A stretch of DNA of 43,662 bases from positions 1 through 43,662 of IMG/VR virus record IMGVR_UViG_3300025769_000235; one strand, 5' to 3'. Positions 3,806-19,442 of the stretch are shown in pieces; position 1 is the first letter of the stretch, and each line of letters opens with the position of its first letter. The notes beneath the pieces are model-generated. The model was not told the DNA's origin and did no database searches. It was given only the letters and a program-made list of their open reading frames with translations. The position numbers and the translations under genes are program-made. This stretch comes from a virus.

Positions 3806-4267
3806 TTAAGCAAGGTTGTTGTTCTGCTGATACAGGATTGTAAAACGAACAAGACCCGCGTTTGTTGCAGCAGAAGCTGTCACAGTCAAACGAATGTCTG
3901 CTGTACCAGTGTCCTGCCAAGCTAATGCAGCACCAGCCTGAGTTGTTGGGTACTTACGCCCAGCAGTTGTGCCGCTTGCAAAAGTGTTCAGAATTGTAGC
4001 TGCACCTCCTACAGTATCACCGATACTAAGGTTGGTTGTAGCGTTAGCGGCTGTAATAACGTCAATCACACAGTCAATAATCTGAGAGTTTGCAGGGATA
4101 ACAACATCAGTAACTTGAGCAGCTAGAGCGCCGCCTGATAGATCTGCTGAAAATGTTTGAGCCATAACAACTTGACCGACGTTAGCAATGTTTGAGCCGA
4201 GAGTCGTGCCTGTTGTGTTCTTGATAGTTCCGGCCTTAATAGGACCAGAGAAAGTAGTGGTAGCCAT
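3806..4267 (-). CDS. Virion structural protein
   Basis: 153 aa. Starts MATTTFSGPIKAGTIKNTTG and continues with a beta-rich pattern (VVIPANSQIIDCVIDVIT). I recognise the N-terminal TFSGPI(K)AG motif from structural proteins in many marine phage genomes. It is the first gene after the capsid terminator and has a clear AGGAG ribosome site ten bases before the ATG. Likely a head- or tail-surface protein. Confidence 0.7.
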   Translation of the reverse strand: MATTTFSGPIKAGTIKNTTGTTLGSNIANVGQVVMAQTFSADLSGGALAAQVTDVVIPANSQIIDCVIDVITAANATTNLSIGDTVGGAATILNTFASGTTAGRKYPTTQAGAALAWQDTGTADIRLTVTASAATNAGLVRFTILYQQNNNLA

Positions 4268-4334
4268 TTAAGTCTCCTGTCGTGGCTAGTGTCAACCGCC
4301 CAATGCAGTTGTCAGGAATAAAACATTGTACAAC

Positions 4335-17781: not shown

Positions 17782-18021
17782 GCCCGAATGATAATACCCA
17801 GCAATGAATTTATCAACCCAGCAAAATGCGCCCGTATGTCAAGAGGCCAGCCCCAAAATATAGGGGGCGGGGGTTCGAGCAGCGCGAAAACTGATTGCCG
17901 ATCGATGCCAGTAACCCCAAAAACCAGCGATTTAATCGGTTTTATATGCATTTTATGTTTGATTTAATAAATAATCTCTATAATCTAATCATATCAAAAC
18001 AAATATAAGGGGTAATTAGAT
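17782..18021. promoter_or_regulatory. Divergent control region between late and early modules
   Basis: 240 bp without a gene. It separates leftward terminase from rightward early genes. It has a GC-rich half (CCCCAAAATATAGGGGGCGG and a run around GCGCGAAAAC) and an AT-rich half near the early genes. An imperfect palindrome lies at 17920-17943 (AAAACC..CGATT-T-AATCG..GTTTT), a possible operator. On the minus strand a TTGACA at about 17839-17844 may belong to a late promoter, but no good -10 lies at the usual distance. Confidence 0.6.
17956..17984 (+). promoter_or_regulatory. Early promoter P1 (candidate)
   Basis: TGTTTG (17956-17961) and a perfect TATAAT (17979-17984) separated by 17 bp, followed by CTAATCATA. 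The -35 match to consensus is poor, but the same TGTTTG-N17-TATA layout with ATCATA downstream is found again at 19452-19480, and the block GCATTTTATGTTTG recurs at 21571-21585. It would drive the gene at 18022 and those after it. Confidence 0.6.
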
Positions 18022-18294
18022 ATGACATTAAGAAACCAAATCATCGAGCAGCTTGGCGGACGCTTGTTCACCGTGACATTCACCAAGGCCGACGGCACGA
18101 CGCGCCATGCATATGGTCAAGTCGTTTCCGACGATCGGTTGACCGACGATCATCCAAACGTGATCACGTTCATCGACTACTCGATCGCTGCCGATACATT
18201 TGCGGAAGGCAAGTCTAACGTGCGTCGTATGAAGCTCGAAGCCGGAACGTATACGATCAAGTCCGGCAAAACCATCATCTCAGACAAAGTATAA
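18022..18294 (+). CDS. First early gene, SH3-like/DUF2693-type small protein
   Basis: 90 aa with a TAAGGGG ribosome site. The segment RLFTVTFTKADGTTRHAYGQ resembles the DUF2693-type FTVTF.K.DG.LR pattern of small phage proteins; the rest (NVRRMKLEAGTYTIKSGKTI) fits a small beta barrel. Very early position suggests a host-takeover or regulatory role, which is inference. Confidence 0.7.
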   Translation: MTLRNQIIEQLGGRLFTVTFTKADGTTRHAYGQVVSDDRLTDDHPNVITFIDYSIAADTFAEGKSNVRRMKLEAGTYTIKSGKTIISDKV

Positions 18295-18306
18295 GGGGAA
18301 TACATT

Positions 18307-18510
18307 ATGACCAGAACATTACAAACCATTCTTCACGAAGTTGCACTAGCCAATGACAAGGTAGACCATGCATTGGAAATTATCGAGAATGTCTTACAAG
18401 ACAACGGCCACTGGTGTGAAGATTTATCCGGCAATATCGAAGATATCAAAACCGATCTTGAAAACCTTCAATACAAAATGGTGACGGTCTGGAATGAGGA
18501 AGACGACTAA
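18307..18510 (+). CDS. Small early hypothetical protein
   Basis: 67 aa, acidic and helical (NDKVDHALEIIENVLQDN, GNIEDIKTDLENLQYKM). The leader AAGGGGAATACATTATGA (18293-18310) is repeated exactly at 18594-18611 in front of the gene after the ribozyme. No family recognised. The hammerhead ribozyme follows 20 bases after its stop. Confidence 0.65.
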   Translation: MTRTLQTILHEVALANDKVDHALEIIENVLQDNGHWCEDLSGNIEDIKTDLENLQYKMVTVWNEEDD

Positions 18511-18516
18511 GACATA

Positions 18517-18530
18517 GGGGCGAAAGCCCC
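18517..18530 (+). other. GNRA-capped hairpin abutting the ribozyme
   Basis: GGGGC-GAAA-GCCCC: 5-bp perfect GC stem with a GAAA tetraloop, ending at the base just before ribozyme helix III begins. It could stack on the ribozyme or protect the 3' end of the upstream transcript after cleavage. It has no T-run, so it is not a normal terminator. Confidence 0.75.
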
Positions 18531-18583
18531 TACCGTCCGGCAGTGTGTGCTGCCGCTGATGAGGCCAAGAGGCCGAAACGGTA
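18531..18583 (+). ncRNA. Type III hammerhead self-cleaving ribozyme
   Basis: All hammerhead parts are present on the plus strand. Helix III: UACCGU (18531-18536) with ACGGUA (18578-18583), 6 bp. Cleavage nucleotide C17 is 18537 (GUC). Helix I: CGGCAG (18538-18543), loop UGUGUG, CUGCCG (18550-18555). Core CUGAUGA at 18556-18562. Helix II: GGCC (18563-18566), loop AAGA, GGCC (18571-18574). Core GAA at 18575-18577, then A15.1 pairing with U16.1. Helix III is the open end, hence type III. Cleavage is predicted between 18537 and 18538, separating the 18307 gene from the genes at 18608 onward on a shared transcript. Loop I starts UGUG, like the tobacco ringspot satellite ribozyme, so a loop-loop contact with helix II is possible. 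Structure is read directly; activity is inferred. Confidence 0.93.
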
Positions 18584-18607
18584 AACCAAATAGAAGGGGA
18601 ATACATT

Positions 18608-18838
18608 ATGAAACCAGCATTTATCGCTCACCATAGGACGGTTGCCAAGAAGATGGCATACGTTTGGGGTATGATGATCATCGCCACCGGCACCATCGGA
18701 CTGGCTGGCCTCGAGTGTTTATTTATGGATGACATGTTTGCCATCGTCACTGGCATCGGTATGATATCGATCGCTAGCGTCGGAGTGCCTTGGTCTATCC
18801 TTGGCTGTTTGTTTTCAATTCAAGATATGAGGAATTAA
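18608..18838 (+). CDS. Small membrane protein, two or three spans
   Basis: 76 aa with hydrophobic segments at about 17-35 (MAYVWGMMIIATGTIGLAGL) and 43-68 (FAIVTGIGMISIASVGVPWS). Ribosome site GAAGGGG 8 bases before ATG, within the duplicated leader. It is the first gene on the 3' product of the hammerhead ribozyme. Could alter host membrane early in infection, for example as superinfection exclusion; this is a guess. Confidence 0.65.
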   Translation: MKPAFIAHHRTVAKKMAYVWGMMIIATGTIGLAGLECLFMDDMFAIVTGIGMISIASVGVPWSILGCLFSIQDMRN

Positions 18839-18840
18839 TC

Positions 18841-19131
18841 ATGGCTAAAATTTACTATCACACTCAGAGAGCTTCCGATAACGCTGCGTACACTTACATG
18901 AAGGGACTTGTCATCTGGTCTCATGCAAGCTCTCTAACTGAGATTGGCAAAACACTCGCCAAGCATAACAAAATCTGGCCTGACTCTTCTAGCGAGGGTC
19001 AGGTGATCACGATCGGCAAGAAGCAGCGAGGCCGTCACGGGATCCGACCCGTAAAAGAGTATCGGCTATTCGGTGACAAGCTGGTCAAGATAGCAGACTT
19101 CTTTATAACCGATGGGTGGATAAGGGGATAA
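18841..19131 (+). CDS. Early hypothetical protein
   Basis: 96 aa from the ATG at 18841, two bases after the previous stop; an in-frame upstream start would lie inside the previous gene. Basic, mixed alpha/beta, with GQVITIGKKQRGRHGIRPVK in the middle. No family recognised. Confidence 0.62.
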   Translation: MAKIYYHTQRASDNAAYTYMKGLVIWSHASSLTEIGKTLAKHNKIWPDSSSEGQVITIGKKQRGRHGIRPVKEYRLFGDKLVKIADFFITDGWIRG

Positions 19132-19133
19132 TC

Positions 19134-19316
19134 ATGGATCAGGTGACAGTCAAATGCACAAAGAAAGGCTGGACGGTATATGTACCGTCCAGCCAGTGCG
19201 ATGCATTCCAATGGATTCTATCGGAGGGGATGGAGGGGCTTGCGGCTATGATAGATGAAGGGCAGCAGGTTATCGAAAGCCAAGACGATTGGAATGGGAT
19301 CGAGTGGAAAATCTAA
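19134..19316 (+). CDS. Small early hypothetical protein
   Basis: 60 aa from ATG at 19134, with TAAGGGG nine bases upstream. Short beta strand (QVTVKCTKKGWTVYVPSSQC) then an acidic helix. It ends 8 bases before a strong terminator, so it closes the first early transcription unit. Confidence 0.65.
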   Translation: MDQVTVKCTKKGWTVYVPSSQCDAFQWILSEGMEGLAAMIDEGQQVIESQDDWNGIEWKI

Positions 19317-19324
19317 CCAACACC

Positions 19325-19365
19325 GGATCGAGGGGCTCCGCCCCTCGATCCTTTTTGCTTTTTTT
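19325..19365 (+). terminator. Rho-independent terminator of the first early unit
   Basis: GGATCGAGGGG (19325-19335), loop CTCCG, CCCCTCGATCC (19341-19351): 11-bp perfect stem followed by TTTTTGCTTTTTTT. It ends the leader transcription unit that carries the ribozyme. Confidence 0.92.
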
Positions 19366-19417
19366 ATATATACAGGGGAACAAGGCCGCAGGCCGCAGGC
19401 CGTTGTATATATAAAAA
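19361..19417 (+). repeat. Long AT-rich inverted repeat enclosing a GGCCGCA repeat
   Basis: TTTTTATATATACA (19361-19374) pairs perfectly with TGTATATATAAAAA (19404-19417); the 29-nt loop contains the first GGCCGCA block. The left arm uses the T-run of the preceding terminator. It could act as a second, bidirectional terminator or a recombination scar. Confidence 0.7.
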
Positions 19418-19442
19418 GAGGAATAAGGCCGCAGGCCGCAGG
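19384..19442. repeat. GGCCGCA repeat cluster A (two copies)
   Basis: Copy 1 at 19384-19402 (GGCCGCA x2 plus GGCCG) and copy 2 at 19427-19442 (GGCCGCAGGCCGCAGG). Both follow an AT-rich stretch and AA. Three more copies lie at 20459-20574, so the five copies bracket the genes at 19515 and 20136. Not a CRISPR array: units are only 7 bp and have no spacers. Confidence 0.85.

Follow-up and report, generated by a model that had tools for sequence, protein, structure and literature searches.

What does a self-cleaving ribozyme do between two genes of a phage operon? The question was raised by the window, by which we mean the whole analysed stretch, an IMG/VR virus record of 43,662 bases, where positions 18531–18583 of the plus strand encode a complete type III hammerhead ribozyme that matches at all conserved core positions. 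Helix III (UACCGU at 18531–18536 with ACGGUA at 18578–18583; 6 bp) is open-ended, helix I (CGGCAG at 18538–18543 with CUGCCG at 18550–18555; 6 bp) is closed by the loop UGUGUG (18544–18549), and helix II (GGCC-AAGA-GGCC at 18563–18574; 4 bp) is closed by the loop AAGA (18567–18570); pairing is perfect in all three. This is the type III arrangement of three helices round the core, with I and II loop-closed and III open, and covariation was found in all three. The core strings CUGAUGA (18556–18562) and GAA (18575–18577) supply C3, U4, G5, A6, N7, G8 and A9, and G12, A13 and A14, the U16.1-A15.1 pair is present, and position H17, which may not be G, is a C at 18537. From hammerhead numbering and established chemistry, cleavage is predicted after this C17 (18537/18538). 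The first-pass annotation had described such a ribozyme in sense orientation, and its description was confirmed for the core, C17, the 6 + 6 + 4 perfect pairs and all coordinates.

The ribozyme splits a rightward operon of five genes (all on the plus strand), sitting, as had been annotated, between two co-directional phage genes, genes 2 and 3. Gene 1 (90 aa; 18022–18294) matched phrog_2267 (E = 4.9e-6) and, weakly and below the cut-off, WYL_2. Gene 2 (67 aa; 18307–18510) ends with a stop codon at 18508–18510 and has nine homologous loci. Gene 3 (76 aa; 18608–18838; 25 homologous loci) is small and hydrophobic and probably encodes a membrane protein (hydropathy 1.86 in its homologue L143); its start codon is 24 nt past the ribozyme end and is preceded by the Shine-Dalgarno sequence AAGGGG (18594–18599). 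Genes 4 (96 aa; 18841–19131) and 5 (60 aa; 19134–19316) showed no family match, and the operon is closed by an intrinsic terminator found by the terminator scan (19325–19356; a 12-bp stem followed by TTTTT). Of the promoter that had been named P1, a perfect TATAAT was found at 17979–17984, which is putatively the −10 box of the operon, whereas a −35 match was absent and the consensus scan did not list the site. To the left of the operon lie leftward packaging and structural genes (terminase, portal, capsid) and to the right GP88, helicases, primase and DNA polymerase; from this position beside the replication module the operon is probably early. The terminase had Pelagibacter phage HTVC027P (59%) and Phage DSL-LC04 (58%) as nearest relatives, and the nearest isolates by terminase (HTVC027P, DSL-LC04, 023Pt_psg01, HTVC023P and MinM2) gave no hammerhead match with RF00008. 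Elsewhere in the window, a Mu-gpT-DE RNA (RF03012, 67 bits) was found at 4265–4317 on the minus strand, just past the gpT-like capsid gene and extending to where the next gene starts; this RNA was also found in L039. A perfect 12-bp inverted repeat (19167–19194) is present within the coding sequence of the 60-aa gene, and past the terminator, at 19380–19442, there are repeated GGCCGCAGGCCGCAGG units between inverted TATATATA arms.

A search with the RF00008 covariance model, as the first-pass annotation had suggested, gave 44.2 bits for the ribozyme (E = 6.7e-8 for 1.9 kb; 3.7e-10 in the search of the whole record). The E-value supports the motif; the score is below the Rfam curated cut-off of 48.5 bits, so that the Rfam gathering scan missed the window ribozyme and the annotation's own refuting outcome, a score below threshold, formally occurred. 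That cut-off is a database setting, not a defining property of hammerheads. Across 28 records, the matches in 23 uncultivated phages scored 21–47 bits and none reached it, and the gathering scan did not find a hammerhead at 12 phage loci. As none of the phage matches reaches the cut-off, the score was not counted against the motif. The Rfam curated cut-off is unsuitable for the phage type III class, and annotation pipelines undercount this class as a result. Chance is a poor source of the motif: the expected number of core-pattern matches is 0.01 per window, and the type III descriptor (helices of at least 6, 4 and 5 bp) gave no match in 500 randomised windows.

Relatives of the locus were first gathered through the flanking proteins, not through the ribozyme. 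The homologues of the 67-aa gene were followed by hairpin and hammerhead in 9/9 loci, even though L004–L006 have a different downstream gene. In an alignment of 16 ribozyme sequences from two protein searches (alignment A1), 97.5% of pair cells were paired and 10 of the 16 pairs had changes on both sides, which none of 500 shuffles reached. Sliding the register by one base reduced the paired fraction to 31–32%, and the best slid register gave 50%. Compensatory changes included GGCC/GGCC to GUCC/GGAC or GAUC/GAUC in helix II, with GGCC/GGAC of L145 resembling an intermediate, and CGGCAG to CGCUAG with CUAGCG in helix I. As the structural descriptor picks paired helices, only alignment A1 gives unbiased evidence of covariation. 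The compensatory changes that the annotation had asked for in related phages are thus present, and by comparison of these sequences the window ribozyme is intact and its base pairing under selection. The first U of loop I and the last A of loop II, both unpaired, were invariant in A1 and conserved at 90% or more in alignment A2, which suggests a tertiary contact between loops I and II.

Upstream of the homologues of the 76-aa gene the picture was more mixed. Among the 24 loci with a readable upstream region, 16 had an intact core, three had a damaged ribozyme (A9C in L148 and L149; a broken helix II closing pair in L158), four the hairpin alone (L152, L155, L156 and L157) and one neither element (L153). 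Loss of the core in close relatives had been named as evidence against the ribozyme; the core stood in 16/24, core or helix II was damaged in 3/24, and the ribozyme was absent from 5/24. Since it is damaged or absent in 8 of 24 related loci, the ribozyme is not essential. L100 and L153 are alike in both flanking genes and differ by the whole hairpin-ribozyme block, indicating that the block is gained or lost as one unit. The copies in L148, L149 and L158 are natural loss-of-function versions that could be used as controls.

The hairpin in question, UA-GGGGC-GAAA-GCCCC-UA (18515–18532, plus strand), starts 4 nt past the stop codon of gene 2 and, through its outer UA/UA pairs, shares the first two bases of helix III. 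It is predicted by folding, its stem is retained in relatives with other loops and stem sequences, and hairpins are enriched at this position. In a first set of 61 dereplicated type III ribozymes (from viral-contig scans, the protein searches and genome-contig loci), a GC-rich hairpin ending at or a few bases from the start of helix III was found in 45/61, while the same hairpin score was obtained at 6.1% of random positions and, in a matched control, at 6.3% of sites 85 nt upstream of other ribosome-site starts. The prediction of a hairpin was then written down beforehand and tested on contigs fetched with a different pattern; among the matches listed, 56/72 type III ribozymes had the hairpin, against 5.3% at random, the contigs being uncultivated and partly fragmentary and the dereplicated sets still holding some shared ancestry. 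The last base of the hairpin was 5–6 nt from the cut in 37/45 cases of the first set and, among the matches listed, in 46/56 of the replicate. About a quarter of the type III hammerheads had no flush hairpin at the threshold used. Loops were often of the GAAA, UUCG or UCCG kind, yet variable, and stems varied widely, so that shape rather than sequence is kept. By these comparisons of position and fold, the hairpin recurs as a partner of phage type III hammerheads and is locked in its position.

Two other roles for the hairpin were considered and rejected. As an anti-Shine-Dalgarno element, its CCCC arm could pair with AGGGG here, but cassettes with AGGAG or without a Shine-Dalgarno sequence keep similar hairpins; many hairpin-bearing phages are of the latter kind, and the hairpin is hence not tied to the ribosome-site sequence. 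As an intrinsic terminator it lacks a U tract, the stem being followed by ACCGUC, and the terminator scan listed none there.

Type I hammerheads provide a natural control. In these, the product upstream of the cut has, by construction, the hairpin of helix III at its end, whereas in a type III hammerhead it ends in one unpaired strand of helix III. Were the companion hairpin there to give the upstream product a structured 3′-end, only type III ribozymes would need one. In the same collections, a flush hairpin was found in 0/40 type I hammerheads (p = 2e-15) and, in the replicate, in 2/31 among the matches listed (p = 6e-12). A separate observation concerns the hammerhead-like sites of L037, L061, L078, L081 and L093, whose helix III contains a hairpin like that of an intrinsic terminator, with a T7 tract; the sites of L037, L061, L078 and L093 were fitted as type I. 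With a terminator inside helix III, transcription would end with the ribozyme still incomplete, leaving cleavage to read-through RNA alone.

Placement between genes was regular. Across the set, the distance from stop codon to hairpin was mostly 3–9 nt and that from ribozyme end to start codon mostly 15–30 nt; the cassette thus appears to fill the untranslated slot while leaving room for an initiating ribosome. At least 51 different pairs of genes were found to flank cassette sites. Six families of downstream genes each followed two or more upstream families, and the converse also held. The 76-aa gene stood behind at least five unrelated upstream genes, a lower bound because one upstream family, U9 of L014, probably represents an ORF read in the wrong frame. 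The cassette thus marks joints of phage gene exchange. Several contigs (L105, L107, L114, L213, L232 and L245) have two to four hammerheads in a row flanking successive small genes, in nearly all cases with a hairpin for each hammerhead. Two type III hammerheads 270 nt apart were also present in L122, a bacterial metagenome-assembled contig (Polynucleobacter MAG) that is possibly phage-derived. BLASTN of the window locus against phages gave no match, and isolate phages and plasmids, queried with the cassette and with the ribozyme, yielded short fragments only. Two inspected fragments, from Rhizobium phage TRX32-1 and Cellulophaga phage phi18:3, look like type I, which was confirmed for phi18:3. 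The variant hammerheads of the published phages PaP3 and Bcep176 were not picked up by the Rfam models.

We consider the element, with a probability of roughly 0.7 and on the strength of sequence comparison, to be an intercistronic mRNA punctuation cassette in which a GC-rich hairpin is joined to a type III hammerhead. The five-gene transcript would cut itself cotranscriptionally after 18537. The upstream two-gene mRNA would then end 5–7 nt past a stable hairpin, with a cyclic phosphate; this 3′-end would be terminator-like, made by cleavage while transcription continues. The downstream three-gene mRNA would begin with a 5′-OH within the stem of helix I, its start codon lying 70 nt further on. 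Both types of end are expected to resist decay, by 3′-exonucleases and by 5′-end-dependent RNase E respectively. Each half would have a protected end and a lifetime of its own and would be insulated from whatever neighbour recombination brings. The first-pass annotation had proposed a product layout of this kind, a hairpin-ended 5′ mRNA and a stem-first 3′ mRNA before a ribosome site. That layout was strengthened: it recurs in many unrelated gene pairs, and the type I product, which already ends in a hairpin, goes without an extra one.

The hairpin might instead be an aid to folding, stacking on a short open helix III (4–6 bp) and holding the ribozyme in its active shape, with the effect on the product end incidental. 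Its position flush with helix III, with an overlap of 0–2 nt in many loci, would suit such a role, as would a weak tendency for ribozymes with a helix III of 7 bp or more to go without it (hairpin in 1/4 against 44/57, p = 0.05). Type I ribozymes, with an equally open helix I, nevertheless had no such hairpin in the first collection (0/40), and its persistence where the ribozyme is gone (L152, L155, L156 and L157) argues against a role in folding alone. Nor does the predicted fold support helix III; it competes with it. When the hairpin and upstream bases were included, helix III formed in only 1–7% of the ensemble of an energy model that ignores ribozyme tertiary contacts, and an alternative pairing of GAC (18511–18513) with GUC (18535–18537) was favoured over helix III by 1.4–2.6 kcal/mol; low helix III values were typical of the set (median 0.06). 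A role confined to folding is, on this evidence, unlikely. The same fold invites a reading as a switch, in which the hairpin and GAC trap the GUC triplet and cutting would depend on a factor or on whether the 67-aa gene is being translated. Folding does predict this alternative structure as the minimum, and in several cassettes the stop codon is followed by GACA. But 19/45 loci allow the GAC/GUC pairing, close to the one third or so that three bases would be expected to reach in such a space, and the close relatives L003, L004 and L007 lack it, making a switch very improbable.

It could also be that the ribozyme is a relic or a passive hitch-hiking repeat that travels with gene shuffling as shared homology, its cleavage unused. 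We judge this quite unlikely: it fits the position at mosaic junctions, the presence or absence at like junctions (L100 and L153) and the mutated copies (L148, L149 and L158), but compensatory changes in 10/16 pairs and a core that is invariant in most copies require continued selection on pairing, and the spacing to stop and start codons is tightly held. Near-identical cassettes beside unrelated genes, and phages with at least two of them (L028, L105, L113 and L114), would be in keeping with an RNA circle or retrozyme-like mobile RNA element moving by cleavage and ligation. With one ribozyme in the window and most relatives there is, however, no circle to excise between two, and recombination of double-stranded DNA explains the mosaics; such an element is scarcely credible here.

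Extended beyond the window, the punctuation reading would make phage type III hammerheads in general four-helix modules, in which a hairpin 5–6 nt before the cut provides a terminator-like 3′-end without ending transcription, and which are shuffled between genes as standard punctuation, type I reaching the same product shape by its own helix III. We give this generalisation slightly better than even odds. If true, it would explain the purpose of many prokaryotic hammerheads.

The sTRSV-type hammerheads of plant satellite RNAs (RF00008) have the same permutation, with an open helix III, and the same core as the window ribozyme, and loop I of sTRSV likewise begins with UGUG. The plant satellite ribozymes process circular RNA replicons, whereas the phage copies fall short of the Rfam cut-off and have an extra hairpin and a ribosome site. 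RiboJ is a synthetic insulator in which hammerhead cleavage, together with a hairpin before the ribosome site, standardises mRNA ends; it is an engineered part that serves to trim promoter leaders, and the hairpin added to it lies on the downstream side of the ribozyme. The phage ribozyme too is located in an untranslated region before a ribosome site (with the start codon 24 nt past the ribozyme in the window and 15–30 nt past it in the set), but its added hairpin is upstream and serves the other product, and its site is between genes. By analogy, the cassette resembles a natural RiboJ insulator, with its function predicted, and phage cassettes could supply many natural insulator parts.

Hammerheads of phages and prophages were described in 2011 as intergenic in phages and proposed to turn long transcripts into gene-length mRNAs; some phage hammerheads cleave in vitro and cloned ones do so in E. 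coli (Perreault et al. 2011, PMC3088659). The window ribozyme shares with them the catalytic core and the position between phage genes. The sections of that paper compared here make no mention of a flush companion hairpin, a restriction to type III or a fixed stop-hairpin-ribozyme-start spacing; the comparison covered open-access literature, and earlier notice is possible. The ribozyme itself is a further member of a known phage family, and the hairpin-ribozyme composite looks new. The HDV-like theta ribozymes of gut phages are tRNA-linked, and tRNA 3′ processing has been discussed for them (PMC10879173); they resemble the cassette in self-cleaving to make RNA ends, but have a different fold and are not at mRNA borders. 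A 2017 review regarded the roles of prokaryotic hammerheads as an open question (PMC6155905). The layout, its absence from type I and the fixed tail length turn the statement that such ribozymes may process transcripts into a specific and cheaply testable one.

A further type I hammerhead, with a 10-bp helix III, was found directly before a tRNA-His (anticodon GTG) on the 166,771-base phage contig L101 (12183–12320, minus strand). The predicted cut after C12258 would leave exactly G12257, the extra G-1 needed by tRNA-His. If true, this single instance would be a striking case of a hammerhead in place of RNase P. G12257 lies opposite an encoded C73-CCA, and the CCACC strand of the ribozyme copies the 3′ acceptor strand of the tRNA.
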